The notes below the pieces were generated by a model. It was not told where the DNA came from. It was given only the letters and a program-made list of their open reading frames with translations, and did no database searches. From Frischella japonica (GTDB lineage Bacteria; Pseudomonadota; Gammaproteobacteria; Enterobacterales; Orbaceae), in the NCBI RefSeq assembly GCF_014489845.1, contig NZ_JABURY010000018.1:1-64000 (forward strand): a DNA stretch of 64,000 nucleotides. The letters run 5' to 3'. Below are positions 1 through 16,437 of this stretch, piece after piece (within the stretch, counting starts at the first letter, position 1; each line of letters starts with the position of its first letter). Position numbers and translations under genes: made by a program.

Positions 1-1
1 T

Positions 2-460: not shown

Positions 461-604
461 GGTTGCTGGGCTTTATCTATTGTTGAGAAGTGTAAAAACT
501 GGCTCAATAAGATATTCAGCCTGCATTTTTGAGTTGTATAAGCCAAAACATTCTGCTAATAGTTTTTTTCCATGTCATTTTGTTGTTGAATAGATGTTTT
601 CCCA

Positions 605-721: not shown

Positions 722-735
722 TTATGTGTCTTTGG

Positions 736-1317
736 TCAAAAATATACAACACCTTCATTTCTAAATTCATTCCTCGCCCAGTCCTCATTTTCGATTATTG
801 GATAATATTTTTTTAATTTTTCATAAAATTCATCATTAGGTGGATAGGCTTCTTTATTTTCATAATGGTCATAGACTTCTTTATAATTTATACAATAAGC
901 ATTTTTACCCTTTATTTTTAAAGTATAAACATAAATTTCTTGGTAACGACTATATCTTAAAAAAGAATATCTATATTTTAATTTTTTTAATAAATCTGTG
1001 TCTGACATAACTGTCAATTCTCGTTGTAAATCTTGCCTATCTTTAGTTGTAAAATTAGGGATATTTTTCATAGCCCAATTGGGTAATTCCTGCCTGATTT
1101 CTTGTAATTGTTGCGGATCAAAAGCTTTGGGTTTAGGATTCCATAAAAGCGATTCGCTTAAACATTCGCAGCCTTCTTTTTCTATTCTTTCAGTAATATC
1201 ATAAGGAGTGGTTCCCCATATTTCATATCTTCCATCTTCTGTTTTGCACCACATATTTTTCATATAGCAACTGTTTAATAATGTGATTAGTAATAATATT
1301 AATAAAATATTTTTCAT
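736..1317 (-). CDS. Hypothetical lipoprotein
   Basis: A 193-residue protein beginning with a short basic start, a hydrophobic stretch and a lipobox-like LLNSC, so it is probably exported and lipidated at Cys17. The mature part is rich in Lys, Glu, Tyr and Asn and has several cysteines (CKTEDG, CECLSE). I do not recognise a domain. It lies immediately 5' on the minus strand of another gene fragment (605-721) and 3' of Rhs-type debris (1322-1414), which suggests a toxin-immunity neighbourhood where exported lipoproteins sometimes act as immunity proteins. That role is inference. Confidence 0.6.
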   Translation of the reverse strand: MKNILLILLLITLLNSCYMKNMWCKTEDGRYEIWGTTPYDITERIEKEGCECLSESLLWNPKPKAFDPQQLQEIRQELPNWAMKNIPNFTTKDRQDLQRELTVMSDTDLLKKLKYRYSFLRYSRYQEIYVYTLKIKGKNAYCINYKEVYDHYENKEAYPPNDEFYEKLKKYYPIIENEDWARNEFRNEGVVYF

Positions 1318-1321
1318 TGTT

Positions 1322-1414
1322 TTATAATTGAGGCTTAAAAGTTTTCATATCATTAGGTACACCCACAGGAGTTGAAGCACCTGTTATCGGATGCCTTGCT
1401 CCGTCGGCAGCAAA
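1322..1414 (-). pseudogene. C-terminal remnant of an Rhs-type polymorphic toxin
   Basis: A 30-residue open stretch, preceded directly by a stop codon, ends at TAA (1322-1324) four bases upstream of the lipoprotein start. It contains DGARHPITGASTPVGVP followed by NDMKTFKP. This DGxRHPxTGxxTPVGVP type of ending is, as I recall it, shared by C-terminal nuclease tips of Rhs and other polymorphic toxins. The rest of the toxin gene is absent, so it is a displaced toxin tip or degraded remnant, and it marks the left end of the window as a former Rhs/toxin array. Confidence 0.5.
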
Positions 1415-1431
1415 TCAGGCACCATCTATTT

Positions 1432-1566
1432 TTATTTATTAAATTCTATTTTTTTCCATTCTTTCCATCTCTTTTTTTCTGTAGGAGTATATTTTTGATT
1501 CAGCAAGTATTTGTATTTATCATTACATAGTTTATTATTCACTGAAGTTGCTTTATTTTTCTTGCT
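1432..1566 (-). pseudogene. Gene fragment, lysine-rich C-terminus
   Basis: An open stretch of about 44 codons follows a stop codon and ends at TAA (1432-1434). The product is Lys/Asn-rich with KYLLNQKYTPTEKKRWKEW near its end. No convincing start codon or ribosome binding site is present; a GTG inside the stretch is the only candidate. It sits directly beside the Rhs-type tip at 1322-1414 and could be part of a dead immunity gene. Function is not assignable. Confidence 0.3.
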
Positions 1567-1668
1567 TCATAAAATAGTTTAATACAATTTTTTTCATCAT
1601 TAATTACTCTTAAATTCCATCAAAGATGTGGGTGATATTTAAGGGAATCACCGTATGGTAACTAAAGG

Positions 1669-1796
1669 TTATTTTCCAATCTGAATATTATCCTTCAGGT
1701 AACATTCCAGACCGACAGGTATAAGCTTAATTTTTCCTGAGGGATAAAAACTATCTTTAAACACTATCATCCATATTTTTATTAATGTAAGAAATG
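1669..1796 (-). pseudogene. Possible remnant frame downstream of DKNYY-like lipoprotein
   Basis: Just after the stop of the gene at 1797, a different minus-strand frame stays open for about 40 codons. It encodes protein-like sequence (FYPSGKIKLIPVGLECYLKDN) ending at TAA (1669-1671). There is no ribosome binding site for an independent start. It may be the tail of a neighbouring lost gene or an out-of-frame extension. The evidence is weak. Confidence 0.25.
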
Positions 1797-2441
1797 TTAT
1801 TTTCCATCACCAAAATATTGTTCTCTCAATGCTGGATCTGTAAAAAGACATCTATCGTCAAATTCTTTATCAAACTCTTCACGACTTTTTATAGGCTTAT
1901 CAGTAATATAAATATAATTTTTATCTAAACCAATCGTTTCGTCCCATTCTGAATCATGTCGGATCTCATTTTTCGTTCTAAACGTATTAACATCGGCACC
2001 GTCTATTTTTTTTCCACCGTAGTAGATTGCATTTTCAACACGTAAGTAATCTCCTCCTAACACCGCATAATCTGAAGATGAGCCAGCTATAAAAAGTTCA
2101 CTATTGACTTGAGAATAGCAGGTATAAATATAGATATAGTGTTTATCTTTGAAATAATACTCACTTTGCATACCTTCGTTATATCTTAGATAGTAATTAT
2201 TATTAATCTTTTTTCTATCCTCTATGTCATTAAACAGCAAATCAAATGTTTCTATATCAATTGTTTTGCTTACGGGTTGATACATTTTCGTTTTTGGATT
2301 ATAAATTGTTGAATAATAGAGTGTATCTGTTGTTTTTTTTGCACACCATGAATTAGGAATTTGAATATTCCATTCGTTACCATTCTTAACAAGAAATGTA
2401 GAACGAGTTTTTGTAACAGCATTATCGCAGGCTGTTACCAA
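1797..2441 (-). CDS. DKNYY-like lipoprotein, signal peptide out of frame
   Basis: A 214-residue frame whose first usable start is TTG at 2441, giving MVTACDNA. This is clearly the end of a lipoprotein signal peptide (lipobox LVTAC), so the true start should lie upstream. The mature part has repeated Lys/Asp-Tyr elements (FKDKHYIYIYT, GLDKNYIYI) and YGGKKIDGADVNTF, typical of the DKNYY family of exported proteins, often found as toxin-associated or immunity-like lipoproteins. The gene at 2600-3250 is a likely paralogue. Whether this copy is expressed depends on the shifted start region (see the next entry). Confidence 0.6.
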   Translation of the reverse strand: MVTACDNAVTKTRSTFLVKNGNEWNIQIPNSWCAKKTTDTLYYSTIYNPKTKMYQPVSKTIDIETFDLLFNDIEDRKKINNNYYLRYNEGMQSEYYFKDKHYIYIYTCYSQVNSELFIAGSSSDYAVLGGDYLRVENAIYYGGKKIDGADVNTFRTKNEIRHDSEWDETIGLDKNYIYITDKPIKSREEFDKEFDDRCLFTDPALREQYFGDGK

Positions 2442-2484
2442 AAAAATGGATAGTAAATAGATGATTATTTTTTTTATTTTTCAT
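2442..2484 (-). other. Frame-shifted start of the DKNYY-like lipoprotein
   Basis: Upstream of 2441 the same frame continues as KIKKIIIYLLSIFLVTAC, a perfect lipoprotein signal peptide. It is closed by TGA, and that TGA overlaps an ATG at 2484 which is in another frame. Removing one A from the A-run after the ATG would give MKIKKIIIYLLSIFLVTAC. This is either an inactivating indel, a phase-variable tract or a sequencing error in a homopolymer. Confidence 0.55.
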
Positions 2485-2599
2485 AATTAGTTGATATTAA
2501 ATATCTCTCCTTAATAATAGTAATTCGTTCCACTTTTACCAAACCAAACCCCCTTTTCAATATGATAATGAAAGATCATTTGGATTGGCTCCTAATAGA

Positions 2600-3250
2600 T
2601 TAGTTCTCTTCTGGAAAATATTGTTGTTTTAACTTAATTTTAATAGTACTTTCAATATCTAAAGAATTAAATTCAGAATAGGATAATCGCTCATTCCTTA
2701 TATAAAGATATTTTTCATCATAACCTAATTCTGGATGATTCGCATTTGCTGGTATAACATTAAAATATTTAGCTTCAACGTCTAATAACTGCCTTGCATT
2801 CCAAAAAACGGTCTGGTTATCTTTAATATATTGTCCTACAACTTTATAGTTTGAAAATTGCAGAGGTAAGATAGAGATATTAATATCTGTAGCAAAATCA
2901 GCAATAGCATATATATTTTTATTATCAGAAAAATATTCAGTTGAATCTATACGATGAAAACTACTTTCATTCAAAACATCATTAAGTAATTTTATTTTCA
3001 ATTCAGGAAAGTGTAAATCGTAAACTCTATTTTGATAACCATAAGCAATTGTTCCTCTGGGATATCCAGGATATTTATATTGTAAGTAATAATTACCTTG
3101 TTTATCTTTATATAGGATATCTTTTACCTGAATATATTCAGAATTAACTTGTTCTAAATGTATTTTTTGTGTTTTTATATCATTTGAACGGCTGTTACAT
3201 GAAATAGTTAGTAACATTAATATAAAAATTATTTTTTTTGCATTTTCCAT
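2600..3250 (-). CDS. DKNYY-like lipoprotein
   Basis: A lipoprotein of about 216 residues. The open frame reaches 3289, but the internal Met at 3250 gives MENAKKIIFILMLLTISC, a textbook lipoprotein signal peptide, so I choose that start; no strong ribosome binding site favours either. The mature protein has the DKNYY-like pattern of short repeats (YKDKQGNYYLQY, SDNKNIYAI, YDEKYLYIRNE) seen in the neighbouring gene, so the two are probably diverged duplicates. Family members are exported proteins of unknown role that I associate with toxin or conflict loci. Function is not assignable from sequence. Confidence 0.6.
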   Translation of the reverse strand: MENAKKIIFILMLLTISCNSRSNDIKTQKIHLEQVNSEYIQVKDILYKDKQGNYYLQYKYPGYPRGTIAYGYQNRVYDLHFPELKIKLLNDVLNESSFHRIDSTEYFSDNKNIYAIADFATDINISILPLQFSNYKVVGQYIKDNQTVFWNARQLLDVEAKYFNVIPANANHPELGYDEKYLYIRNERLSYSEFNSLDIESTIKIKLKQQYFPEEN

Positions 3251-3377
3251 AGTTTTATATTTATTGGTCCGTATTTGTTTTATCATCATAAACCCAAAAA
3301 TCTTCAGAATTATCTAACAATTTACCTAATGTTCAACTTGCCACAAAAACAAAATAACTTTCCAGAAGATACTGTTT

Positions 3378-4727
3378 TTAGATTTTTTTAGAAGATAAAG
3401 TTTTATGCTCCGTCGTTTTTTGTAAAGAATCAATTTCATCTGATATAACAGATTTTAAAGGAACGGCACCAACCGGCAATGCTTTTTCAATAATTAATTC
3501 TGAACCTTGTTTTGCTAGCCATTGCTGTAATTTGGTAAAATCACTACACCAAAGGGTTTCAATATCACTATCACGTTGTTGATTGTTTTCGGAAGTCAAT
3601 TTAACTGCTCGTACCTGCATGCGTGCCACCTCAGCGTTAGCGGCTAACTCTATGCCGTAACCAGGTGTAGAAGGATTACGCAAAACTAATCGCCCATCTT
3701 TCGCCCACTGTGTATCCATTCCGTGTCGTACTTCATATCCTAAGCTAGCCAGTCCCTGTAAAATAACTTGCTGTCTGTACATCGCTTCGGTTTTTTCTGT
3801 GATTTGTGCCAGCGTATGTTCGCAATTATCTATTAATATTTTCAATTCTTTAACACTCATCGTGTCAAGTTTATTAAAATCAAAATCTAAAGGCTCCGTT
3901 GTTTTTTGTTGTAATTCAGCGATTAATAATTCCAATTGTGCTTGTAAAACTCCACGTTCCTTGGCCTCATTAACCGCTTGAGCTAAGTCTAGAATAATAC
4001 TATCCAGTAGTAGTTTCTTACGGTTAGGTTGTAACTCCTGCTCAATGTTGTTTAAGCGCTCAATAAATACATCATAAACTTCTTTTTGTTCAAGTGATAA
4101 TTCTGCAAGATAGTGTTCAATTTTTTGTATATAAGGGTCTTTTTGCAATGCAATATTTTGTTGTTCTAACCAGCTTGCAAAGGTTTGCGTGGTGTTATCA
4201 ACCACCATACGATTGAGCAAAGCTTGTTGCTTTTCGGAAAGTTCTTTGGTGTTTTTAGGCATGAGTAAATTAAAGGCTTTCGTTAAAAGCTGATTAACAT
4301 TCCCCTGATATTTACCTTTAATCGCTTGCTGTAATTCGTTATTGAATTGATCGGAGCGAACAACTTGTTTATTATTTAATAAATTAATGAGAGCTTTGAT
4401 ATTTTCTTTTGCTTGCTTTTCTTCAATAGCTTGCTGACTTTTGGCAGCGACCTTTAATTGTCGACGTTGTGCGATATCGTCACTTAGACTGGTTATTTCA
4501 ATCGGTACAAGTCTTTGTATGTCTGAGAAACGTTGCTCTTCTAACATTTGATCAAAGGTTTTTCGTTTTGCAATGATTGTTTCATAAAACTTTTCATCTG
4601 TTTCATTCAGCTTATCCATTGCTTTTTGCCATTGCTTAATCGATTGATCCAGACGGGCCAAATGCCCTTTGCTGGTAGCCATCATTTCTTCTAGCGTAAC
4701 AATTCTGACAACTTTTGGGCCACTCAT
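3378..4727 (-). CDS. Coiled-coil protein, last gene of operon A
   Basis: 449 residues, almost entirely helical with long heptad-like stretches rich in Gln, Glu and Leu (about residues 20-320). A short globular tail (about 325-430) includes GYEVRHGMDTQWAKDGRLVLRN and an aromatic/charged segment ending in EHKTLSSKKI. The N-terminus MSGPKVVRIVT is distinctive, and I recall similar starts in uncharacterised proteins. It has no signal peptide or membrane helix. Its ATG overlaps the stop of the 2085-residue helicase gene by four bases (ATGA), implying translational coupling and probably a stoichiometric partner. I infer an adaptor, sensor or structural component of operon A; no enzymatic motif is visible. 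Confidence 0.7.
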   Translation of the reverse strand: MSGPKVVRIVTLEEMMATSKGHLARLDQSIKQWQKAMDKLNETDEKFYETIIAKRKTFDQMLEEQRFSDIQRLVPIEITSLSDDIAQRRQLKVAAKSQQAIEEKQAKENIKALINLLNNKQVVRSDQFNNELQQAIKGKYQGNVNQLLTKAFNLLMPKNTKELSEKQQALLNRMVVDNTTQTFASWLEQQNIALQKDPYIQKIEHYLAELSLEQKEVYDVFIERLNNIEQELQPNRKKLLLDSIILDLAQAVNEAKERGVLQAQLELLIAELQQKTTEPLDFDFNKLDTMSVKELKILIDNCEHTLAQITEKTEAMYRQQVILQGLASLGYEVRHGMDTQWAKDGRLVLRNPSTPGYGIELAANAEVARMQVRAVKLTSENNQQRDSDIETLWCSDFTKLQQWLAKQGSELIIEKALPVGAVPLKSVISDEIDSLQKTTEHKTLSSKKI

Positions 4728-7700
4728 TGACTTACCTCGGATGTTAATACAGTTTCAACCAACGTTTTTAAACGTTTCTTTTCTTGTTCTTTATTTTCAT
4801 ACCAATTATGTGATGAAATACGTATGATATTAGGAATTGCACGTTTTAAAACCGATTGTCGCCAAATTTCACGCGATCTAGCATGATTTAACAATGAGTG
4901 AATTGGTGCATCACATTCAATCCCAATACTGTATAGTTTCGTTGCTGGGTCTTCAATCGCAAAATCTAACGCGAATACACCATTACCTGATTGACGCATA
5001 TACCCTACCCCCAAAGACTGGATATAGGCTTCTACATCATCAAGAAAAGCATCTTGTTGCATAGTCTCTGTTCTATCAATAACAAACTGGCTATAACCCG
5101 TAACTCGATTAAGTAGATCTTTACTGTAGTCAAATTTACCTTCTGACAATGCTTTAGCATAAGCTAAATAGCATTGTAAATAATCCCTAGGTGTAGTTGG
5201 GCTCTGTTTGCCAGATAACATATCAGAAATATCGTCTATCGGCATTGAGGAGACTAAAATTATTTTCTTACGAGCTCGTGTAATGGCCACATTAAGCCGC
5301 CTTTCTCCCCCCTGTTGTCCTAATACGCCAAAATTACGTCTAAAGATTCCTTTCTCATTGCATCCAAAAGTTGTCGAGAACACAATAATGTCACGTTCAT
5401 CGCCTTGTACATTTTCAACATTTTTAATAAAAATGGACATATCTTCGCCGTTGTCCATACGTTGATTTTCTTCTTTGAAGATGGTGGCAAACGTTTCATC
5501 TTCAGCTGCTTTTTCATAAAAGAACTTTTCAATTAAGTCTGCTTGCTTTTTATTAAATGTAACGACGCCTATAGAAGGACGTTTGCCCGATGACTGCTGC
5601 CAAATATTGTCCACCACTTGAACAACTTTTTTGGCCTCTTTTAAATTTGTTTGTTGTTCATATACTCCATTAGCCCATATATACTCTAAAGGCTGTGCTT
5701 GTTTAATCGTTTCTAACGGATGCCGAACGGGTATATTTAGTTGATTCATATAGAAAGCAGCATTCGAATAATCAATTAACTCTCGATATTCCGAACGATA
5801 GTGAATTTGCAAGCCTGTAGTTGGTAATACTGAACGAGCAAGTTGTAATAAATCAGGACAATCCGTAATTTCTTTTGAGTCCCATTTGCCTTGTAATACC
5901 TCTTGTTGTTCTTCATCGGTTAATTCAGCGCTTAAATTAAGATCTAAATCTTCCTCAAGCTCTGCTTGAGCACTAAAGAAAGAGCTAGGTGGCATTTGCT
6001 TTTCATCCCCACTCACGACAGCCACTTTAGCGCGATAAAGTGATGGTATTGCATATTCGACAGGCATTTGTGAAGCCTCATCAAAAATGACCACATCGAA
6101 CAAGCCTGCTTTTAAAGGCAATAGCCGACTCACAATATCAGGATTCATTAACCAAATGGGTCTTAAACTCATAAGCCCTAACTGCACACCTTGTTCTACA
6201 AACTCACGCAATCTTCTTGCACGCTGCCCGGTTAATCGTGTAATATCTTCCCATTCTCTAGCACTCGCTAACTTACCGACAGGAATATTGTGCGTAAATA
6301 AGGTTTTATTTAATTCACGGATCTCTTCATCAGCTGAGGCTAAAGCCTGAATTTGTTGTTGAATTTCATCCTCATTGGTTAGCAGTACAGGATTATCTTG
6401 CTCAATACGTGCTTTCCATGTCTGTTTAGCCTCATAATTTAATAGCTGTCTAAAACTTTTATCAAGCGCTGTCATAGGTAAATGAGTTAAGTCTTCCTGA
6501 TAAAGCCTTAAACGTTCAAACAACTTAATAGCTTTGGCTGATAATTGTGGAACACGTTTTCTAAAATATTGGTAAGCTTCAAGAGTATCAAGTGCACGGT
6601 TAATTTCTATCAGCAATAGAGGAGAAATTTCATTTTTTTCGATAGACGTTTTGCAGTTTTCATAGAGTGTATCTTCAAAATAACTTACTAACGGCAATAA
6701 TGCCTCTAAAGAAGCTTTACGTGAAGCATATCTTTCAAAAGCGGTATGATAATCATTTAATAAGTGTTCGAATGCCACTTTACTTCGTAAGACTGACTTT
6801 TCAACTTCTTCACAGTGAGGTGCCGACATAATTCTTTTAGCCCATTCTTTTACCTCTTGCAAACTTGTTAATGTTTCATTGACGACATTTTTTATATTCA
6901 GGTTTGTACGATTATCAGGTACTGGCAATTGTAGTCTAGCGCATATAGTTTGTATCTCTTGACGAATAGGGCGATATTCTTGCTCAAGCAACAATGCATT
7001 ATAAAGTTTAGGAATGACCTCCAAATTCGGCAACTCACCTTGTAATGCTAAAAATGCTAATAATGCCTGTTTTGATCTATAACGTTTAATACTTAAGAAA
7101 CTATACCATGACCTAGGCATTAACATCAGTCGAGCTTTGTTTGATAAATCATTTAACTCATTTAACTCTAACAAACAAAGTTTAAGGGATAAATCACACC
7201 AACTGCTTTCATTTAACAGTGCTAAGCGCTCTTTCAATAGAGTCAGTTGGTTAATTAGTAAATCGCCTTCTAACACAGCGGAAGCATCAGCACCCAGCTT
7301 AAAAAAAGGCAACCATTTTACTAAACGTGCGCGAATACTTTCTGTGATCGCCAGAAAATGATTCCCCTCTGCTTCAATCCATTGCTGGTAGGGTTTTGGG
7401 TTGTCTACTTCAAAGCGCGTATGATTAGTCAACTGACTCATTCTTAGCTGTTCAACACTTAAAAAATGGCTAAAGAATTTTTTAAAATCTTCTAGTGTAG
7501 CTAAATCATGGGAAAATACTTTTAAATGAATTAGAGGACTATTTTCGTAACAGGCAGGCAACCAAAAACGCACTAGTGGTGCACACTCATTTTCTAATGT
7601 TATTAACTGTTGTGGATCGCAATCACTTATCACTGATCTTATTTGAGGCGCTGCAAATAACTGATAGTTTTTATCAATACCAATTAAATCAGCAATCAAT

Positions 7701-10700
7701 TCTCTATAACTTAACCCCGTTTGAGGATCTTGTTGATGTAGTGCCTCGTGATGATTATCTAAACGATTTTCTAAATCTGTAATTTTGGCTGCAACTAGTT
7801 TACGTTTTTCGATCCAATCCGTTCTTTCAGGGAATTTAAATAATAATCCCAGTTGTTCTCGTATACTACTAATCACCGAATTTCTATTTGCATTAACATC
7901 ATTGACCATAATACTGCGAGAATCTAGCCCTTCCGCGGCTAAGCGTTTATATACTACCTCTAATGCTGCTTTTTTCTGGCAAACAATCAACACAGTTTTA
8001 TTTCGGCCAATCGCGTCGCCCACCATATTTACAATGGTTTGGCTTTTTCCTGTCCCTGGTGGTCCTTCAATTAAGAGTCCTGAGTCTTGTCGTGCTTGCA
8101 AAACGGCATTTTCTTGCGAAGGGTCACTGGACACTGAAAAATAGCGATCTAACTCTGCCGGCTTTTCAGGAATTTCAGCAACTGCTTGATAAGGCTTTAA
8201 ACGTAGTGCTGTTTCTAACGCAGTATTAACAGGTGATAATTTCTTTAAACGGTTAAGTTCTTCACCGATGGATTGACCTAAAAAGTTTACATCAAATAAC
8301 ACAGCCGAACATGCAATGCAGACTTCACTAAGTTCAGTGTCAAAATTAATAGGTAGATTTTGCACTTGCCGAGACGATACACTCCCCAAATTAGTTAATG
8401 TATCCATAACTTCGAGTGTCGTCAGCGCAGATCTCGCTAATAACTCATCTATAACGCTTTTCCAATCTTCATACAACGCCTTTCCCAACATACCTTCTAA
8501 TGCAGGATTAACCCTGATTTCTTCACGTTCATTATCAAATGCTAAAGTAATACGATTGGGAACGCCCATATCATAATTAAGTGTAATGGGCCAAAGTAAT
8601 AGCGGAGCAATACGAGGTAATCGATTGCTATTAGGCTCTTGATAAAGCAAAAAAGGGAATCCCATGTACAATCCATTAATCCCTGTATCTCTTCTACAGA
8701 GATTAGATTGACGGTATAAATTACGCAATTGATACTCGATAAAGTTGTTGGCTTGAAAGGCTTCCAGATCAATAGCTTGCGGTCGGCTATTGCGCTGTAC
8801 AATATGATCTAACAATTTATTGGCAGACGTTCTTTCTGTACCTAATAAATTAATATCGACACGCGCAGTGTACATTCCTAGACGCATTCTCACTAAAGGG
8901 CCTTTTAATATAGATGTAGTGACTTTTTTATGGAAAAAATCAATAATCTGAGAGGTATACTGCCGTTTGTGGGGCTTAACCCATTTTTCAGGTCCAATAC
9001 TTAATAAAACCAACAATTTCGGTAATGGCATGCGTTTTTCAAGACGGTATTGTTCTGCCCATTGGTCGACTTCATCCAAGCCCGTGCTGGCAAATCCCTC
9101 TATTCGTTCATTTAACTGTTGATAAAGCGTCAAACGCGGTTGCGCGATTAACCTTCTTAACGCCTCATCATCAACCATATCAATGTTTAATTTCTTTCCT
9201 AATGTGAGTGACTCTTTAAGTACTGTATCTAATGATTTAAACTGCCCAAGCTCAGCACTGAGTAAAACAATGAAATCCTCTTCGCTAATGCTGCGCCGCT
9301 CTAATAATGACAGTAGCCCTGCGTTATTTGCATCCGGAAACAGGGCGTTTTTTTCCGACCATATGGCTGCTAATTGGGCTCGAGAAGCCGAGAGCAAATG
9401 GATTCTTAAAACTTCTTCATCCAGTTTTATTTGTAAGTTCAAAGCTCGCTGACGAACCGTATTAGCTCGCTCATGTAAATGCCATAACCACACCTCAGAT
9501 GCTTTTAGTATACTTGGAATACCCCCTGAAATAAGCTGGTATCCGTCACTAGGATGTTGCAATAACCAATTTGGCGTTACAATATTACCGGCTATAATGA
9601 GTGGCATATCAGGATTTAAAATCTTTAATACCACCATCAATTGCATATCCGATGTTAAATCCGGCTTACGCATAATCTCTCTGATAGTGGCTAGACTCGT
9701 GGCATCAAAATCTGTTTGCTCTAACCATGTCACCAAATTACCTCGAGACAAAAGCTCGGTCGCCTCTTGCCAATTAACCGGGTTAGCTGCATTTAATGCA
9801 AATACTTTAACTCTATGGTAACTTTTTCCACCCAAGGAAATACTTCTATCGAGATCAACTTCTTGCGCAGTCGCTTGCACCATTTCGGGAGCAGCTACAT
9901 CCTCGCCGTTAATCCACGCTTGAACTTCAGACCATTGCCAGCGACGATGATGATCTTTAGCCAATAGTCCTCTTAATAGCAACTGTAGCCGAGGGTCTAA
10001 TGTGGTTGGAATATCTACACCACTGGCCAGTACTTGAATGATAAACGCTTGTGTATTTACGCCCTCAAAGCATTTACCTTGTGTCAATTGCTCTAGTAGA
10101 ATAACGCCCAAGCTCCACCAATCAGAAGCGACACTTACACCACCTGCTACAACTTCTGGCGCAGTATAAAAAGTAGTTGCCAAAGGCGATATAACTTCTA
10201 GATCAAACTCTGAGAGCCTTGCTGAACCAAACCCCGTAATCACTAAATCCAGAGGTTCTTTTGTACGCACTAATAAGTTATTAGGTCTTAAATCACAATG
10301 ACGTAAACCGGCTGCGGTAAACGCATTTAGTGCTTGACCTAGCTCTGTCATGACATGGCGAATAGTATCCATATCATTAATGACCATACCCAGATCAGCT
10401 AATACTCCACCTGTTAATTCTTCTGCTACAACATAAGCTTGATCGTTCCAACGACCTTTAGTAATAATTTCTGGCACATGCTCACGAGGAAGGTTACGCA
10501 AGACTTCATATACATCAATATTTGGCTCAGCACCGGTATGATAGAGCGTTAGAACTGCACGTTTTTCATCATGTAATCTTTTGACCAAATAACGTTCACG
10601 CACGCCATCGGTTTGACTAATAAGTTGCAGTAACTGCCAATCATCAATGGTGGTAATATCAGACTCTGTTATGGTTTCTTCTTGGTTAGAAGGTATTCGT

Positions 10701-10981
10701 TCTGGATTTTCTGAATTATCTATCTCAGCTAAATCAGCACCACACTCCATGCAAATTAAATCACCTGTATCCATGATATGGCCATTCACACAGTGTGCCA
10801 CAGTGATTTCTGGCAACACATCATTGACCGTTACAACGCTCTGGGGGCGCCATCCTGTTTCACTAATAGTTACCGATGACAAATCCCAACCACAGAGTTC
10901 ATCATTAATAGTCCCTTCACAGAAAATCTCATGAAGAGATCGCTCTGTTTGACAATTAGGACAAAACCGCATCATGGCCAT
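4724..10981 (-). CDS. Zinc-ribbon / pseudokinase / SF1 helicase / REase-like fusion protein
   Basis: A 2085-residue multidomain protein. Residues 1-90 carry two zinc-ribbon-like Cys clusters (C7-x2-C10, C21, C30; C64, C77-x2-C80). About 113-360 is a Ser/Thr-kinase fold with HCDLRPNN (Asp230) and TAPE (274-276), but DFG reads GFG (250-252) and the VAIK lysine position reads VLTL, so it is probably a pseudokinase. About 640-950 resembles the region before the helicase in COG1112/DUF4011 proteins. The SF1 helicase follows: Walker A GPPGTGKS (973-980), DEAS (about 1634), GDEKQMPPS (about 1657), the HYRS motif, and VAITRARKK (about 1900). The last 130 residues resemble the Vsr/MTES_1575 endonuclease fold (LDFAIED, GIECDAP). 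The ribosome binding site AAGGA lies 7 bases before the ATG. Domain layout resembles kinase-helicase proteins such as Mokosh type I, but no PLD nuclease is seen. Confidence 0.85.
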   Translation of the reverse strand: MAMMRFCPNCQTERSLHEIFCEGTINDELCGWDLSSVTISETGWRPQSVVTVNDVLPEITVAHCVNGHIMDTGDLICMECGADLAEIDNSENPERIPSNQEETITESDITTIDDWQLLQLISQTDGVRERYLVKRLHDEKRAVLTLYHTGAEPNIDVYEVLRNLPREHVPEIITKGRWNDQAYVVAEELTGGVLADLGMVINDMDTIRHVMTELGQALNAFTAAGLRHCDLRPNNLLVRTKEPLDLVITGFGSARLSEFDLEVISPLATTFYTAPEVVAGGVSVASDWWSLGVILLEQLTQGKCFEGVNTQAFIIQVLASGVDIPTTLDPRLQLLLRGLLAKDHHRRWQWSEVQAWINGEDVAAPEMVQATAQEVDLDRSISLGGKSYHRVKVFALNAANPVNWQEATELLSRGNLVTWLEQTDFDATSLATIREIMRKPDLTSDMQLMVVLKILNPDMPLIIAGNIVTPNWLLQHPSDGYQLISGGIPSILKASEVWLWHLHERANTVRQRALNLQIKLDEEVLRIHLLSASRAQLAAIWSEKNALFPDANNAGLLSLLERRSISEEDFIVLLSAELGQFKSLDTVLKESLTLGKKLNIDMVDDEALRRLIAQPRLTLYQQLNERIEGFASTGLDEVDQWAEQYRLEKRMPLPKLLVLLSIGPEKWVKPHKRQYTSQIIDFFHKKVTTSILKGPLVRMRLGMYTARVDINLLGTERTSANKLLDHIVQRNSRPQAIDLEAFQANNFIEYQLRNLYRQSNLCRRDTGINGLYMGFPFLLYQEPNSNRLPRIAPLLLWPITLNYDMGVPNRITLAFDNEREEIRVNPALEGMLGKALYEDWKSVIDELLARSALTTLEVMDTLTNLGSVSSRQVQNLPINFDTELSEVCIACSAVLFDVNFLGQSIGEELNRLKKLSPVNTALETALRLKPYQAVAEIPEKPAELDRYFSVSSDPSQENAVLQARQDSGLLIEGPPGTGKSQTIVNMVGDAIGRNKTVLIVCQKKAALEVVYKRLAAEGLDSRSIMVNDVNANRNSVISSIREQLGLLFKFPERTDWIEKRKLVAAKITDLENRLDNHHEALHQQDPQTGLSYRELIADLIGIDKNYQLFAAPQIRSVISDCDPQQLITLENECAPLVRFWLPACYENSPLIHLKVFSHDLATLEDFKKFFSHFLSVEQLRMSQLTNHTRFEVDNPKPYQQWIEAEGNHFLAITESIRARLVKWLPFFKLGADASAVLEGDLLINQLTLLKERLALLNESSWCDLSLKLCLLELNELNDLSNKARLMLMPRSWYSFLSIKRYRSKQALLAFLALQGELPNLEVIPKLYNALLLEQEYRPIRQEIQTICARLQLPVPDNRTNLNIKNVVNETLTSLQEVKEWAKRIMSAPHCEEVEKSVLRSKVAFEHLLNDYHTAFERYASRKASLEALLPLVSYFEDTLYENCKTSIEKNEISPLLLIEINRALDTLEAYQYFRKRVPQLSAKAIKLFERLRLYQEDLTHLPMTALDKSFRQLLNYEAKQTWKARIEQDNPVLLTNEDEIQQQIQALASADEEIRELNKTLFTHNIPVGKLASAREWEDITRLTGQRARRLREFVEQGVQLGLMSLRPIWLMNPDIVSRLLPLKAGLFDVVIFDEASQMPVEYAIPSLYRAKVAVVSGDEKQMPPSSFFSAQAELEEDLDLNLSAELTDEEQQEVLQGKWDSKEITDCPDLLQLARSVLPTTGLQIHYRSEYRELIDYSNAAFYMNQLNIPVRHPLETIKQAQPLEYIWANGVYEQQTNLKEAKKVVQVVDNIWQQSSGKRPSIGVVTFNKKQADLIEKFFYEKAAEDETFATIFKEENQRMDNGEDMSIFIKNVENVQGDERDIIVFSTTFGCNEKGIFRRNFGVLGQQGGERRLNVAITRARKKIILVSSMPIDDISDMLSGKQSPTTPRDYLQCYLAYAKALSEGKFDYSKDLLNRVTGYSQFVIDRTETMQQDAFLDDVEAYIQSLGVGYMRQSGNGVFALDFAIEDPATKLYSIGIECDAPIHSLLNHARSREIWRQSVLKRAIPNIIRISSHNWYENKEQEKKRLKTLVETVLTSEVSQ

Positions 10982-10991
10982 GCTAAAATCC

Positions 10992-11639
10992 TTAATACTT
11001 TGTTTTATCAGCAGTCACTTTTATCTGATGCCCTTGTTGCTTTAAAAGAGTTTGTAATTTTACGAAATCATCACGCCTAGGGATGCCGGCAAACCAGACA
11101 ACCCCTTCTGCGTCAAACATGACATCTAATACTTTATCCTCAGTTGTAACTGCTTGCTGATAATAGGCAAATTTTTCTACAGCTTGTGAGGTAAAACAAT
11201 GTAACCTTTGATTATCACTACCTCTTAACCTTAAAGTTTGTGAACTCTGCCGTTGAAAGGGGTCACTGATTAACACATCAATGTAAGGTTTAATTTGCTG
11301 TAACTGATCGGTAATATCTTCAACGCCATACCCTGTGTACACTAAAATATCGACCTTTGTTCTTTCGCGTAACTGAACCACAATAGCCAACAACGCCTCA
11401 AATTGATCGAACGGTTCCCCGCCAGAGATAGTAATCCCATCAATCAAAGGTAGGTAAGAGGAAAGCTTCATCATCAGTTGTTCAATTGGAATTAACGTTT
11501 TTGCTGTTGCCCATGTATCAACTGAAATACAACCCTCACAACGTAAACTACAACCTTGAAACCAAATACCAAGTCGCCTACCTGGTCCTAGTGTTGTTAC
11601 TGGAAAATGAATACGCGAGATACCAACTGTTAACACCAT
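10992..11639 (-). CDS. Radical SAM protein, NrdG/PFL-activase-like
   Basis: 215 residues. The motif GCSLRCEGC (Cys30, Cys34, Cys37) is the CX3CX2C ligand set for a [4Fe-4S] cluster, and SGGEPFDQ is the SAM-binding GGE motif, both typical of the small activases for anaerobic ribonucleotide reductase and pyruvate formate-lyase. LGIWFQGC before the cluster fits the 4Fe-4S single-cluster subgroup. The last 60 residues extend beyond the minimal NrdG fold. No glycyl-radical enzyme is nearby; instead it lies between an AAA+ ATPase and a helicase-nuclease. Its ATG abuts the ATPase stop (TAA ATG), so the genes are cotranslated. The substrate is unknown; modification of a protein or nucleotide within operon A is inference. 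Confidence 0.85.
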   Translation of the reverse strand: MVLTVGISRIHFPVTTLGPGRRLGIWFQGCSLRCEGCISVDTWATAKTLIPIEQLMMKLSSYLPLIDGITISGGEPFDQFEALLAIVVQLRERTKVDILVYTGYGVEDITDQLQQIKPYIDVLISDPFQRQSSQTLRLRGSDNQRLHCFTSQAVEKFAYYQQAVTTEDKVLDVMFDAEGVVWFAGIPRRDDFVKLQTLLKQQGHQIKVTADKTKY

Positions 11640-13460
11640 TTACTCCAAAATTAATTGCCCTATTTGCAACTGAGTTACCACTAATGTTTGACCTGTTTGA
11701 GGGTTTAACTTAAACAACTCACGAGCCAATGGATTTAATAAATAAGCCTCAATGTGATTACGTATTCCTCGACCACCATTTGATAAATCAGCTAAAGCAA
11801 TGTTTTTCAAACTGTCTAATGCTTCTGGGGTAAAGGATAAAATTAACCCTTGTGATTGTAAATCTTCAATCACACCATCGATCATTTGTTGGAATATTTG
11901 CTCCGCCACATCAGGACGAATAAAGTCAAAGACAATAATATTTTCGCCTATCCTATTCAATATTTCGGGGCGATTTAAAACAAATTTAAAATGCCGCTCA
12001 ATTTCATTTTTTACTTTTGCTTGAACATCATCAAATTGAACATTAGCAGTAACGTTAGGAATGCGCTCACCTGTTTCGGTCAGTTTATAAATTCCAAGAT
12101 TGGATGTAAAAATGATGAGTGCCTCTGAAAAATAAACACGCTCACCTCGACCAGAAGTTAGAACACCATCATCTAAAATTTGTAAAAATTTATCCATAAC
12201 CCGAGGATGAGCTTTTTCAATCTCATCAAATAATACGACACTAAACGGTTTTTCTCGTATTGCATTGGTTAGCTCCCCTCCTACATCATAGCCCACATAG
12301 CCGGGAGGTGAACCAATTAAACGCTGATCGGAAAATTCTGAACTAAACTCAGACATATCAAAGCGAATGTATGCGCTTTCATCATTAAAGAGCAAACTGG
12401 TAACTGTTTTGGCAAGCTCTGTTTTACCTACACCTGTTGGACCTGCTAAAAAAACTACGCCACGGGGTCTATTTCCTCTTCGGTTAGCACCAATACCCGT
12501 AATTGCTCGCTTTATAATATCGAGCATATGGACAACCGCATGATTTTGTCCTTTAACTCGTTGATACACAAAGTTATCTGCTTGTGCTATTTTTTCACGA
12601 TCAATTTTCTGCCATGGATCTTCCGTTACACCTACTTTATAGCGCCTTACGGCATCATTGATATCATCAATGCTCAATTTCTCTACTCTTGCCAATGTCG
12701 TAATAGCATTCATATCCAGCAATAACATCCCCTCTGTACTGTTAACAAAGGTTGTTTCCGCTTTTGCCAGCAATTCTGGCGAAGTTTGTTGCGAACCAGA
12801 AATACCTTTTATTAATCCAGAGGCTAATGCTCGACGAGCAGCGCTGTCTGGTTTAGAAACTGGAATATGACGAATTCGTGGATTATTTACTAATAACCAG
12901 TCAGGTAAATCCCCTTCTTTTTCTACCAACCAAAGTACAGTATTAAAAAAGGGCGTACGATTTGTACCAGCTGGTCTTGCATTCACTCGATGAGAGAGTA
13001 CTAATGCCCGCGTAAACAGCTGATGTTCTGCTGTACTTAAGTTATCTGCACGAATGGTCAGTTGTGAGGCAAAATCAATAATTAATGCAACAGGCTCGTC
13101 ATTAAGATTAACAAAATTTTCTAATGCATTTCCCAATAAATCAATGCCTGCAGCAGCCCGCCCTTTTTCTGGCGTTAATCCTACTTGTTGTAATAATTTA
13201 TCAATATCAATAGCTGGTAAATCAGGTGTTTGTAAACCATAAAACCCCGATAAAGGATCCCAAATCAGTACTTGACTATACCCCACACCGCGCAGAGCAC
13301 GATATAACGCTAACTCAAATGTTTGTGGTGTAATAACCCCTGGCTCCACTTCACACGCTTGTAAATCCCTAATATTTCCTGACAATAAAAACTGGCTCTT
13401 TAAATGTAAAAACCTAACTAAATCACGCATCCAACGTGGCTTACTAAACTGATAAGTCAT
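11640..13460 (-). CDS. ClpB-D2-like AAA+ ATPase, first gene of operon A
   Basis: 606 residues. The C-terminal half (about 300-600) is a class II Clp/HSP100 type AAA+ module: Walker A GPTGVGKT (340-347), the pore-loop region GSPPGYVGYDVGG, Walker B VVLFDE (408-413) followed by IEKAHP, sensor 1 IIFTSN and a C-terminal small domain. Residues 1-280 look like a degenerate AAA-like domain (FLLSGNIRDL, VALIIDFASQ) with no Walker A. I infer one active and one inactive module, and a protein-remodelling role. It is the promoter-proximal gene of the four-gene operon, with ribosome binding site AAAGGA 8 bases before the ATG. It is not housekeeping ClpB or ClpX, given its length and divergent N-terminus. 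Confidence 0.85.
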   Translation of the reverse strand: MTYQFSKPRWMRDLVRFLHLKSQFLLSGNIRDLQACEVEPGVITPQTFELALYRALRGVGYSQVLIWDPLSGFYGLQTPDLPAIDIDKLLQQVGLTPEKGRAAAGIDLLGNALENFVNLNDEPVALIIDFASQLTIRADNLSTAEHQLFTRALVLSHRVNARPAGTNRTPFFNTVLWLVEKEGDLPDWLLVNNPRIRHIPVSKPDSAARRALASGLIKGISGSQQTSPELLAKAETTFVNSTEGMLLLDMNAITTLARVEKLSIDDINDAVRRYKVGVTEDPWQKIDREKIAQADNFVYQRVKGQNHAVVHMLDIIKRAITGIGANRRGNRPRGVVFLAGPTGVGKTELAKTVTSLLFNDESAYIRFDMSEFSSEFSDQRLIGSPPGYVGYDVGGELTNAIREKPFSVVLFDEIEKAHPRVMDKFLQILDDGVLTSGRGERVYFSEALIIFTSNLGIYKLTETGERIPNVTANVQFDDVQAKVKNEIERHFKFVLNRPEILNRIGENIIVFDFIRPDVAEQIFQQMIDGVIEDLQSQGLILSFTPEALDSLKNIALADLSNGGRGIRNHIEAYLLNPLARELFKLNPQTGQTLVVTQLQIGQLILE

Positions 13461-13505
13461 GCCGAAAATCCTTTAATAATAAACCTCCAATAATCACTAC
13501 CATGT

Positions 13506-13511
13506 ATTATA
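13506..13511 (-). promoter_or_regulatory. Candidate -10 box of operon A promoter
   Basis: A TATAAT on the minus strand about 45 bases upstream of the AAA+ ATPase ATG. The best -35 at 17-base spacing (CTAGTT) is weak, so activation or an alternative start is possible. Confidence 0.4.
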
Positions 13512-13651
13512 TAGAAACATATTGATATAACTAGCCTTAATAATTAAAGATATGTAATGTTGATAGTAATAAAATAAAACTACTTAGTACTTGAGAGGGA
13601 TTGGTTGACATTTTATAGGTTTTAATAAATAAAAACACTATTTTTATATAT

Positions 13652-13741
13652 ATTGAAATCTATCATATTTGTGTTCGTTGTCATTCAGCCAACGGTAAGA
13701 TATCGCCAGAGCAATATGAAAGCATTATTATAAAAACATGA
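13652..13741 (+). pseudogene. IS3-family transposase C-terminal remnant
   Basis: The plus strand encodes VRCHSANGKISPEQYES followed by IIIKT and a stop. The pattern RxHSANGxxSPxQYE is the highly characteristic C-terminal end of IS3-family OrfB (DDE) transposases. Only about 29 codons remain and no terminal inverted repeats are recognised, so it is a relic. It marks past insertion-sequence activity right beside operon A. Confidence 0.6.
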
Positions 13742-14398
13742 AATCATATTGGGCAGGATTATTAATGGAGGACGATGAATCATTCTTAACAAAACCTAAA
13801 TATTCTTATAATTCAGCATTTCAGAGTTGCTTTATAGTATGTTTTTGAGCATAGTTGAAAATTAATTTATATCTTGTTCCGTTTTAATTTTAGCCGTTAA
13901 TATTGAATTTCTTTTGTTATCAATAAATCCTTAGAATATATCTAATTTGGATTTACACAAAATTTAATACAGTTTCGCACAGAACCATCTTGCAAGATAC
14001 ATTATCAGATTACTTTTGGAAAACTATACAATTTAGACCAGAACTAATCTGACAGAAACCTTTCAAAATCATATACTGTAAATGCTGGTCTAAACGTATT
14101 CACATTATTAATATTCTATATCTTGATTCATTGTTTGATGAATATCGACTTTAATATTACCATCAAATTTGTTGACTAACCAAATATTCAAATTAACACT
14201 CTTAATAAATTCATATAATCTATTTATACCATTAACTAGACTTTTAGGTCTCGTTGTAGCCACAAATAGCTGTTTCATAAATTTTTCTTGATTACTCAAT
14301 GGTCTTTTTTGGCGGTAATTGCTTTATTCCCATTAACAATTATGATTAATTTATTCCTTTTCATCTAGCTTCTTTAATTCTGTATAAATTAATGCAAA

Positions 14399-15034
14399 TT
14401 ACTTTTGAAATGTAATATCACAAATATCAACTCTTTCCATATAATTTGTAGAAACCGAAGAAAATATGATTTTTTTATTTTTATCAATAAAATAAGTTGC
14501 AGGAATAGGTAATTTATGGCTTTTATCATCATTAAATAATTCTAGATCTGCACCCAGGTTTTTATAAATTTTACGAATATTTTCTTGTAGTATGTAGGCA
14601 AGCCCATATTTATCAGCGATTTCGTTACCTTTATCTGAAAGTATTCTAAAATCAAGGTTATTTTGTATCGTTATATCATGATTAAAACGGATAGTTTGAG
14701 GGGTTATTGCAATAACCGTTGTACTATCGATAAGATTGTTATTAATAGCTTCTTGATAATGTGCTAGTTCAGCCATACAAAACGGGCACCAATTACCTCG
14801 AAAAAAGCTAAGTATTACGGCATTATCTTGTAATACATCATATAGTGAAACAGGTAATCCTTCGGCATCTGGCAACGTAAAATCAGGAGCTATATCACCG
14901 ACTTTAAGAGCATGATGTTCTAAATTTTGCTCAATTAAGTTCTGAAGTGATTGTCTAAGTGCATTTAAAATATCAACAGGTACATTTTGAGCCATCTCTT
15001 TTTGTATAAGCTGAAGTTTTTCATTTAATTTCAT
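14399..15034 (-). CDS. Peroxiredoxin-like protein (AhpC/TSA family)
   Basis: 211 residues. A helical N-terminal segment (1-45) is followed by a thioredoxin-fold AhpC/TSA domain starting at GDIAPDFTLPD. The active-site region is NWCPFC (Cys83, Cys86), a CxxC arrangement typical of the peroxiredoxin-like subgroup rather than classical 2-Cys AhpC. It has no signal peptide and is presumably cytoplasmic, reducing peroxides with a thiol donor. It is the last gene of a leftward operon with a DNA alkylation repair protein (2-base gap) and a MarR regulator, suggesting a coordinated response to an electrophile or oxidant. The order and spacing support cotranscription; the inducer is unknown. Confidence 0.85.
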   Translation of the reverse strand: MKLNEKLQLIQKEMAQNVPVDILNALRQSLQNLIEQNLEHHALKVGDIAPDFTLPDAEGLPVSLYDVLQDNAVILSFFRGNWCPFCMAELAHYQEAINNNLIDSTTVIAITPQTIRFNHDITIQNNLDFRILSDKGNEIADKYGLAYILQENIRKIYKNLGADLELFNDDKSHKLPIPATYFIDKNKKIIFSSVSTNYMERVDICDITFQK

Positions 15035-15036
15035 TG

Positions 15037-15894
15037 TTATTTTCCTTTATGTGGCATATTAATTGTACGCATCGCTTTTTTAACAATACGCTTTGTAAAT
15101 TCTGTATTACTTTCAAATACCCATCGTTCGCATAGATCTGAGACCCAATTTGGTCGAGTTTTACTTGCATCATTTAACCAATTTGCAACCGAATCTTGGA
15201 CATATTTTTCTGATTCATTTTTTAATGGTTCAAGTAAAGGAAGCGCAATATCAGGTTGTGTTTTTAACTCGGTAATATGTTTACACCAAACCCCTCTAGG
15301 TCTCAAACACTCAACAGCAAACCGTCTAATGTAGGGATTCGGATTTGTTACCCAAGAAGATAGTAATTCGATAGAAACAGTTAAATCTGAACATAGTTTT
15401 TCACGAACCGCCATCCAAGCCCATTCACGAACACCGAAGTGGTTATCTTTAGCATAAGGTTGAATCTGGATAAGTAATTCTTGTAGTGATAATGGGGGTT
15501 TCTTTTCCGGAAGAATAAAACATGCCCATCCTCGGGCTGTGTCAGATATATGTTGTGATAAACAACGGTATATTTCATCTTGTATGTTATAACTAACGAA
15601 TGTGTCAGCAAGTACTTTCCCTATTATTTTCATTTTAGACAAAATACCAGATGCAGTATTATTCATATTCATAACTGACAACATTTTGTTTAATAATTGT
15701 TCATTACAAAATGGCGTAAGAATCACTTTAAATAAATGTTCTTGGTCAACCTGTAAGCATTCATTGAGATGAGTTGTGGCTTCAAGCCCGTTATTTAACA
15801 TGTCAATACGATTCATTATTCGTGATGTCCTAGTTATGAAATTGTTGCGTAATAGGATCTTTTTAATCTGTTTAATTAACTTTCTATATGACAT
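15037..15894 (-). CDS. HEAT-repeat DNA alkylation repair protein (AlkD-like)
   Basis: 285 residues, all-helical. The segments GVREWAWMAVRE, PYIRRFAVECLRPRGVWC and YVQDSVANWLNDASKTRP are characteristic of the COG4335/AlkD-like family of alkylpurine DNA glycosylase-related proteins, built from HEAT-like helical repeats. The RRFA and RPRGVW motifs lie about residues 199-212. Such proteins bind and excise alkylated bases in the cytoplasm, though many members are unproven as glycosylases. It sits between marR-like and peroxiredoxin genes in the same leftward operon, so it probably belongs to a stress regulon. The start MSYRKLIK was chosen as the first ATG in an otherwise closed spacer. Confidence 0.85.
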   Translation of the reverse strand: MSYRKLIKQIKKILLRNNFITRTSRIMNRIDMLNNGLEATTHLNECLQVDQEHLFKVILTPFCNEQLLNKMLSVMNMNNTASGILSKMKIIGKVLADTFVSYNIQDEIYRCLSQHISDTARGWACFILPEKKPPLSLQELLIQIQPYAKDNHFGVREWAWMAVREKLCSDLTVSIELLSSWVTNPNPYIRRFAVECLRPRGVWCKHITELKTQPDIALPLLEPLKNESEKYVQDSVANWLNDASKTRPNWVSDLCERWVFESNTEFTKRIVKKAMRTINMPHKGK

Positions 15895-15954
15895 GTCACT
15901 TATAAAATACTAACTTATAATGACGGTATACAGTCGGTGTAAGTAATAATTAAA

Positions 15955-16437
15955 TTAATCCTCTTTAAGTTGAAACATTTTATTTAAAATACCAATGAGT
16001 GTTTCAATTTCAGAATCAGTGAGATTTTGTGTAATGCTAGCAATCCAACGACTGTGATCTTTGAATATTTTGTGGATTAAAACTTGACCTTTATGGGTCA
16101 GAGTTATATTAATTTTTCTTCCATCAACAGGGGCATCAGTTTTATTGACTAATTCATCTTTAACTAAAGAATTAATTAAAGATGTTATCGTCGGTTTTGT
16201 AACGCCACTTAAAGTAGCAATTTCTTGCGGAGTGAGCATTTTATACTCAAATAAAAGAACGAGCACCATAAAACGACCTTCAGATAACCGAAAATCACTC
16301 AATCGTTCAGAGCATTGCTTGTCTATTTTCTTTCCTGTAGAAAGTATGCTAAAACAGGCTTCTACTGCTGATATATTAGCCACTTTGTGTTTTTTAATAA
16401 TACTCGCTAAAGATGTGTATTTTTTTTCCAATTTCAT
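15955..16437 (-). CDS. MarR-family transcriptional regulator
   Basis: 160 residues with the winged-helix core of the MarR family: LTPQEIATLSGVTKPTITSLINSL is the helix-turn-helix (about 90-115) and DAPVDGRKINITLT the wing with the conserved DxR-type residues. The flanking helices would form the dimer interface. It is the first gene of a leftward operon with a DNA alkylation repair protein and a peroxiredoxin. A perfect palindrome lies 20 bases before its start between promoter and ATG, which strongly suggests autorepression relieved by a small ligand or oxidant. No conserved sensing Cys is obvious near the N-terminus except Cys27 and Cys40. Confidence 0.9.
   Translation of the reverse strand: MKLEKKYTSLASIIKKHKVANISAVEACFSILSTGKKIDKQCSERLSDFRLSEGRFMVLVLLFEYKMLTPQEIATLSGVTKPTITSLINSLVKDELVNKTDAPVDGRKINITLTHKGQVLIHKIFKDHSRWIASITQNLTDSEIETLIGILNKMFQLKED

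Follow-up and report, generated by a model that had tools for sequence, protein, structure and literature searches.

A patchily distributed operon of Frischella japonica combines a Clp-like unfoldase, a radical SAM protein and a pseudokinase-helicase-nuclease: a possible defence system

Introduction

Bacterial systems that combine a helicase with a kinase include Mokosh type I, in which an MkoA-type helicase is accompanied by a separate kinase, MkoB. Among the radical S-adenosylmethionine (SAM) enzymes, NrdG and the activating enzyme of pyruvate formate-lyase (PFL) act on protein substrates, and viperin is an antiviral member. Here we compare these and other described systems with a four-gene operon of Frischella japonica, found on the minus strand between positions 13460 and 3378 of a stretch of 64,000 nucleotides (contig NZ_JABURY010000018.1, positions 1 to 64,000; referred to as the window). 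The operon encodes, in this order, an AAA+ protein (CLP), a radical SAM protein (RSAM), a fusion of zinc ribbons, pseudokinase, helicase and nuclease (HEL) and a coiled-coil protein (CC). From sequence comparison we propose that it represents an unfoldase-gated helicase-nuclease effector system whose role is probably defence against phages or plasmids, a reading to which we assign a probability of about 0.4. If it is correct, bacterial immunity would include a step controlled by radical SAM chemistry on a protein, and a first outline would emerge of an effector platform gated by an unfoldase, whose relatives occur in proteobacteria, actinobacteria, clostridia and cyanobacteria.

The closest described proteins are ProA, Hhe and PDC-S37, annotated as anti-phage in NCBIfam or PADLOC profiles, all of which match the DUF4011, helicase and nuclease half of HEL. 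HEL reaches 529.5 bits with ProA (NF058533, cut-off 1500 bits), 331.3 bits with Hhe (NF042953, cut-off 2000 bits) and 499.3 bits with PDC-S37, the best stretch in the latter case being residues 949-2079 of 2085, with no cut-off given by PADLOC. HEL differs from these proteins by its additional zinc ribbons and pseudokinase and by the company of CLP, RSAM and CC. The PLuB helicase model (NF040671, cut-off 999 bits) is likewise missed by HEL (78.6 bits) and by an Acinetobacter plasmid helicase (161.5 bits). A resemblance to Mokosh type I had been pointed out in the original prediction and stands as far as the combination of helicase and kinase domain is concerned. However, MkoA matches HEL in parts only (157.1 bits, best stretch 1627-1913), the kinase of the operon is fused inside HEL and lacks the beta3 lysine, and CLP, RSAM and CC are extra, so that the operon does not belong to Mokosh type I.

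The conflict systems centred on AAA+ MoxR-vWA proteins or GTPases share with the operon, according to the accessible part of PMC7159879, an NTPase chaperone for which a role in setting the threshold of various effectors is proposed. The operon differs from the MoxR-vWA systems of that account by a CLP of the Clp type and by a radical SAM enzyme in the core, and it is not one of them: no MoxR or vWA family scored above the Pfam cut-off in the four proteins. Plasmid operons of Paenibacillus, Rhodococcus and Paenarthrobacter, composed of an AAA ATPase, a gene in the DUF1257 position, a DUF2997 gene and an NrdG-like RSAM, resemble the operon in having an ATPase, a related RSAM and small partners, but contain no kinase or helicase inside the module, and a homology of DUF2997 and CC is only hinted at. 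The assumption that no named system fits thus held, in that the four proteins stay below the NCBIfam cut-offs of named systems; PADLOC provides none. No publication naming the operon was recognised in the literature searched, which left most subscription journals outside its coverage.

Architecture of the operon and its proteins

The four coupled genes predicted at 3378-13460 were recovered as intact open frames with these exact coordinates:

11640 to 13460, minus strand: CLP, ClpB/ClpC-like double AAA+ protein, 606 residues
10992 to 11639, minus strand: RSAM, NrdG/PFL-activase-like radical SAM protein, 215 residues
4724 to 10981, minus strand: HEL, zinc ribbons, pseudokinase, DUF4011, superfamily 1 (SF1) helicase and MTES_1575 nuclease, 2085 residues
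3378 to 4727, minus strand: CC, coiled-coil protein with an alpha/beta C-terminal domain, 449 residues

RSAM directly follows CLP, 10 nt separate it from HEL, and HEL and CC overlap by 4 nt.

CLP is matched by the Pfam families AAA_2 (E = 1e-47) and ClpB_D2-small (3.3e-07) and consists of two parts:

12621 to 13460, minus strand: D1 (residues about 1-280), AAA-like fold without Walker A; the model aligns to NBD1 and NBD2 of ClpC/ClpB
11643 to 12611, minus strand: D2 (residues 284-606), ClpB-D2-like ring with a GYVG pore loop

The GxxxxGK[ST] Walker A motif of D1 is missing in all 25 aligned CLP sequences, and Walker A, Walker B and the GYVG loop of D2 are intact in the same 25. Judged by these motifs, CLP is a protein with a dead first and an active second ATPase ring, in contrast to ClpB with its two active rings, whose model it misses (TIGR03346, 267.3 bits at a cut-off of 1232.1). 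Residues 5-606 of the CLP structure model (predicted local distance difference test, pLDDT, 88.7) can be aligned to the ClpC/ClpB double ring (best Z 30.3, root-mean-square deviation 7.2, 505 residues aligned).

RSAM is matched by Fer4_12 (2.9e-27) and belongs to the radical SAM superfamily by its cluster motif, which is invariant in 30 of 30 sequences, as are Gly140, Ser141, Asn143 and Gln144:

11529 to 11552, minus strand: CxxxCxxC cluster motif of RSAM (Cys30, Cys34, Cys37)

A profile search of the PDB returned the PFL-activating enzyme first (2.5e-17), with a viperin chain far behind (0.0032). Since antiviral radical SAM enzymes are known and the profile weakly reaches viperin, RSAM might produce a modified nucleotide that acts as a poison of viral synthesis or as a signal to HEL. 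We regard this as distinctly improbable: RSAM is far nearer to the protein-acting PFL-activating enzyme and NrdG, and its partner CC has an invariant cysteine. The NrdG-like sequence (92.2 bits) could also indicate a spare glycyl-radical activase of the anaerobic ribonucleotide reductase or PFL type that is present here by chance. Such an accident is so improbable as to be nearly negligible, as RSAM misses the NrdG cut-off (TIGR02491, 126.1 bits), no glycyl-radical motif was seen by eye in the four proteins, and each of the 31 HEL loci found through RSAM also has CLP and CC. Moreover, RSAM is not needed for activation of NrdD because the genome has its own NrdG (212.9 bits) adjoining NrdD elsewhere.

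The third protein, HEL, has Pfam matches to Pkinase (3.9e-23), DUF4011 (1.7e-14), AAA_11 (8.7e-14), AAA_12 (4.3e-19) and the restriction endonuclease (REase) family MTES_1575 (1.7e-17), arranged as follows:

10697 to 10981, minus strand: zinc ribbons (residues about 1-95), matching the ribbon half of a stand-alone zinc-ribbon-FHA protein
9911 to 10654, minus strand: pseudokinase (residues about 110-357), without the beta3 lysine and with GFG instead of DFG
9563 to 9865, minus strand: residues 373-473, without a Pfam family, hit in BLAST searches with the kinases of several relatives
8486 to 8827, minus strand: DUF4011 (residues 719-832), by Pfam
5246 to 8125, minus strand: SF1 helicase, AAA_11 to AAA_12 (residues 953-1912), by Pfam
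4766 to 5047, minus strand: MTES_1575 nuclease of the REase fold (residues 1979-2072), by Pfam

Patterns for Walker A, motif III and motif VI of the helicase were present in 39 of 39 HEL open reading frames (ORFs). The Walker B pattern, which was too strict, matched 9 of the 39, and a four-letter nuclease pattern could match anywhere and carries no weight.

Recurrence and distribution of the gene set

A scan of genome contigs with RSAM as bait yielded 58 loci (two of them, L067 and L068, of identical sequence); loci without RSAM are under-counted because of this bait, and ORF calling was rough in high-GC genomes. BLAST of the four proteins on the ORFs showed a HEL frame of more than 1500 residues in 31 of the 58 loci; CLP, RSAM and CC are likewise present in every one of these 31. 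The hosts comprise Pseudomonas, Stenotrophomonas, Cupriavidus, Bradyrhizobium and others, and since the set recurs across species its composition is not due to chance. The check proposed beforehand asked whether the four-gene order recurs in defence islands; the gene set recurs, and its neighbouring genes gave no clear enrichment of defence functions (see below).

The distribution is patchy at the levels of family, class, Pseudomonadaceae and the genus of PA7, as matches were found in few genomes at each level. In the family of the window, 9 of 43 relatives have a HEL match at 1e-40, 7 of these with CLP, RSAM and CC around HEL (in G041 split over two contigs). RSAM matches occur in 7 of 369 genomes of the class at 1e-20, the own genome included, and in 9 of 398 Pseudomonadaceae at 1e-30; in the genus of PA7 one of 25 genomes is positive by RSAM, and the same by HEL. 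G095, a genome outside the family, carries the four-gene set, and the nearest named relatives of RSAM are uncultured Gilliamella metagenome-assembled genomes (96% and 90%).

In two genomes, G032 (locus L010) and G042 (L011), about 200 N-terminal residues of CLP are followed by HEL from residue 471-477 onward, which lacks ribbons and kinase. These stretches yielded no RSAM, CLP D2 or CC, and the G042 copy contains a stop. The joint absence of CLP D2, RSAM, kinase and CC may reflect a coupled control module and fits decay equally well.

From phosphorylation relay to pseudokinase

Outside the four-gene set, RSAM retrieved 27 loci. In other phyla its partners are CLP, a zinc-ribbon-FHA protein, a kinase that keeps the catalytic lysine and, in some cases, PP2C. 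A CLP homologue of 32-45% identity is encoded in 20 of the 27 loci, besides L020, a truncated copy of the operon; in L048, L050, L051, L064, L065 and L074 the stretch examined showed either no CLP or a weak similarity to an ATPase of a different type. In 23 of the 27 loci a kinase stands alone or is fused in another way, and a zinc-ribbon-FHA gene is present also in 23, being missed in L020, L050, L064 (all three cut by contig ends) and L065. PP2C was detected in 5 of the 58 loci, including the identical L067 and L068; its absence from Streptomyces loci means little because the PP2C profile was built from three seeds.

The call of a pseudokinase in HEL was correct and extends to the family. 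In an alignment of 64 kinase regions the beta3 lysine is lost in 41 of 41 helicase-fused rows and kept in 23 of 23 other rows; 38 of the 41 also lack the Asp of DFG, which is retained in L012, L046 and L047. Some rows are redundant (L067 and L068 are identical; L005/L021 and L018/L020 apparently stem from the same contigs). Profile searches detected neither a separate FHA gene nor a PP2C gene in the flanks covered for the 31 four-gene loci. When the profile of the FHA protein was run on HEL, the best stretch was the ribbon half in 31 of 31 loci and the FHA half was unmatched, with E-values that are uninformative because the iterated profile had absorbed HEL ribbons. Because the lysine is lost, FHA and PP2C genes were not detected nearby and the ribbon half is still matched, the helicase-fused branch seems to have lost the phosphorylation relay as a set and to have retained the zinc ribbon. 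We assume that the switch of the relatives, an active kinase with an FHA reader and sometimes PP2C, would have decayed here, leaving a pseudokinase that serves as scaffold and is joined to the effector. The three arrangements, an active kinase with FHA, a separate helicase and a fused pseudokinase, form a natural series that may reveal how a signalling relay becomes a fixed fusion. Of relevance is Aristaeella, where a separate DUF4011 gene lies beside genes for a kinase, an MSGPK protein, FHA, RSAM, an AAA ATPase and a phosphatase.

CC and a model of control

No Pfam family scored above its cut-off in CC (Gly_radical only at E = 0.23). Its conserved parts are the two ends:

4695 to 4727, minus strand: N-terminal MSGPKVVRIVT, residues 1-11, mean majority fraction 0.97 in 28 four-gene CC, MSGPK invariant
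3465 to 3776, minus strand: C-terminal domain (residues 318-421), by conservation and structure model
3546 to 3548, minus strand: codon of Cys394, invariant in 35 of 35 CC and in 5 left-out references that reach the region

In the same 28 proteins, residues 12-317 are divergent (majority fraction 0.47-0.60) and residues 318-376 conserved (0.80-0.81). Met1, Ser2, Tyr331, Cys394 and Gly408 are invariant in all 35, and the window CC contains two cysteines in total. Further CC-type proteins have a cysteine near the end, presumably in the last helix, and a glycine 10-27 residues on, in 19 of 21 cases by a loose text pattern and inspection by eye, not by alignment and with no chance rate computed. 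The structure model of CC (pLDDT 84.6) found no convincing relative (best Foldseek E 0.49), and we claim no fold. Over the alpha/beta part, the VIA structure matches, which include KA1-like ones, have Z scores no higher than 7.2. Because the N-terminal strand (from residue 2-6) and residues as far as 405-423 are covered together by structural matches, the model suggests that this strand and the C-terminal part form one composite domain.

Cys394 is a candidate site of RSAM action because it is invariant and belongs to the constant partner of a radical SAM enzyme of the protein-acting type. Our preferred reading of an unfoldase-gated effector can then be put as a sequence of steps. HEL would be the effector, acting as helicase-nuclease on foreign or damaged nucleic acid, and CC an adaptor or sensor that ties CLP to HEL and restrains or presents the latter. 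RSAM would prime CC by a modification, most likely at Cys394, and thereby render it competent. Upon a trigger, CLP would remodel CC or the CC-HEL complex by pulling on CC, perhaps via the MSGPK end, so that the nuclease is freed.

A homology between CC and DUF2997 is hinted at by a chain of hhalign comparisons: window-type CC against a set from Geminocystis, Calothrix and plasmids (2.3e-4), plasmid CC against DUF2997 (1.8e-4) and a mixed set against DUF2997 (3.8e-5), out of seven single pairwise tests in all with only three sequences on the DUF2997 side. Pfam reports DUF2997 in one of four plasmid CC (E = 0.05). A relationship of CC to DUF1257 (Ycf35), prompted by the position of CC in related operons, was dropped (hhalign E 0.82).

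Exchangeable partners in the wider family

Because the wider family pairs CLP and RSAM with other effectors, these two look like the core and the helicase-nuclease like an exchangeable part. On plasmids of Moellerella, Acinetobacter, Leisingera and Photobacterium the order is helicase, PIN nuclease, CC-like protein, CLP and RSAM, and kinases carry a C-terminal FGE-sulfatase part in L048 (with RSAM) or Sel1 repeats in L052 (with CLP and RSAM). Sequence comparison suggests that the operon is one branch of a machine that is widespread and has no name. It is doubtful in our estimation that this represents immune or conflict machinery of a new class; its core would be a radical-SAM-modified adaptor and a half-dead Clp unfoldase, modification of a cysteine would license effector release, and the swappable effectors would be helicase-REase, helicase plus PIN, or the Sel1 or FGE-sulfatase parts of the kinase branches. 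We know of no described defence system in which radical modification of an adaptor cysteine serves as control principle.

The five-gene plasmid operons with helicase, PIN, CC, CLP and RSAM (L091, L092, L094, L095) encode a CC-like protein weakly related to that of the window, and no NCBIfam model scored above cut-off for their proteins, tested from two of the four. In the plasmid operons of loci L085, L087 and L090, genes for an AAA ATPase, DUF2997 and an NrdG-like RSAM are combined with DUF1257 or with an unnamed gene at the DUF1257 position. DUF2997 was matched in neither of two genomes (a Streptomyces and a Lachnospiraceae), DUF1257 in none of 150 Pseudomonadota; the accessible part of PMC4284462 lists a DUF2997-ycf35-fed7 cluster for Synechocystis. 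On a Geminocystis plasmid (L093), about 9 kb separate RSAM from CLP, with three GTPase-like-looking genes between them and an annotated anti-phage dCTP deaminase nearby. A large ORF of a Streptomyces locus (L057, 1810-5346) resembles a CHAT-type protease at its end by eye.

Defence or surveillance

The original prediction of an undescribed defence or nucleic-acid surveillance system is partly supported. It is favoured by the anti-phage annotation of HEL relatives, the patchy distribution, the varied contexts and the relatives on plasmids typed conjugative; the position next to the defence hotspot cDHS1 in PA7 (see below) also speaks for defence. The four-gene layout itself occurs on an annotated Rhizobium plasmid (n = 1), and plasmid RSAM matches at 47-52% comprise seven Rhizobium records and one of Caballeronia. 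No relatives were found on viral contigs with an RSAM or DUF1257 query, and phage records gave a single match to the helicase half (28.9% identity). The plasmid-borne relatives could also belong to a selfish or plasmid-competition module that keeps rival plasmids out or secures the maintenance of its own element instead of acting against phages. We consider this improbable, as several four-gene loci are situated on contigs of at least 0.5 Mb, including a complete chromosome of 6.6 Mb.

In PA7, ORFs read as infC, rplT, pheS, pheT and merR are followed by a tRNA-Pro (ARAGORN) and, after about 19 kb, by CC, HEL, RSAM and CLP. We take PA2725-PA2728 to be the same operon in PAO1. Changes in PA2727 are listed among clonal isolates in the accessible parts of PMC4918941 and PMC3697988. 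The left flank of the defence hotspot cDHS1 of P. aeruginosa is given as pheS, pheT, ihfA, merR and a proline tRNA (PMC10250203, accessible part), and the operon in PA7 is the right flank of cDHS1. There the genes serve as boundary markers; the same part assigns them no function, describes no test on them and does not mention the Clp-like gene. If our reading is correct, it suggests which function to seek in the genes that border this well-known hotspot of Pseudomonas.

Several results weigh against a defensive role or against the proposed part of CC. Every P. aeruginosa isolate is reported to carry the cDHS1 flank genes (PMC10250203, accessible part), which is unusual for a defence system; a fixed core locus, named beforehand as an argument against defence, is thus realised within this species, at the border of a defence hotspot, and distribution is patchy in the wider groups. 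When 86 proteins near 18 operons were compared with 90 controls, PADLOC profiles matched 67 times at 1e-20 against 2 in the controls, counted as profiles and not as distinct proteins; one protein alone matches 40 profiles at 1e-15, and there is no clear enrichment of defence genes. Of ten neighbours examined singly, eight had no PADLOC match. The cysteine-helix-glycine arrangement is absent in Calothrix, and in L067 the Cys is present without the Gly. Direct comparison of the CC C-terminal domain with DUF2997 was not significant (hhalign E 0.58), and window-type and plasmid CC are weakly alike (0.0061, and 0.016 when whole proteins are compared).

The operon could be a general stress-surveillance machine for nucleic acids or proteins, in which HEL processes stalled or damaged DNA or RNA, CLP and CC recycle it, and defence genes land nearby. 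Its core status in P. aeruginosa (PMC10250203, accessible part), the lack of clear enrichment in the neighbour test and the FGE-sulfatase or Sel1 parts in place of a nuclease in L048 and L052 agree with this idea. We nevertheless judge it somewhat unlikely in view of the patchy occurrence (HEL in 9 of 43 of the own family, RSAM in 9 of 398 Pseudomonadaceae), the varied contexts and the plasmids typed conjugative.

Surroundings of the operon

The window was set against the flanks of five other Orbaceae operons (ORFs of at least 90 residues, more than 50% identity). G025 has three neighbouring genes or fragments in common with it, G036 and G040 one gene of 93 residues, and G014 and G016, whose operon proteins are 97-98% identical on the compared pieces, no common neighbour; the contig of G016 ends shortly past CLP. 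In G036 (L100, L101) tandem similar genes surround the operon, eight of about 160 residues, four of about 290 and five of about 270.

The GC content is raised over the operon, being 0.36-0.41 across 4001-14000, compared with about 0.30 in 1-4000 and 14001-22000, and amounts to 0.33-0.39 at 22001-30000. Where the original prediction saw toxin debris, four neighbouring proteins in 23-3289 gave a single Pfam match, DKNYY. Two further groups of genes were noted in the window:

1797 to 3289: DKNYY-family gene and neighbour adjoining the operon, common to G025 at 92-95%
23595 to 27508, minus strand: three tandem genes, the middle one DUF6384 (1.1e-34)
23595 to 24989, minus strand: one of these three genes, with a Ser/Gly-rich tail at its end

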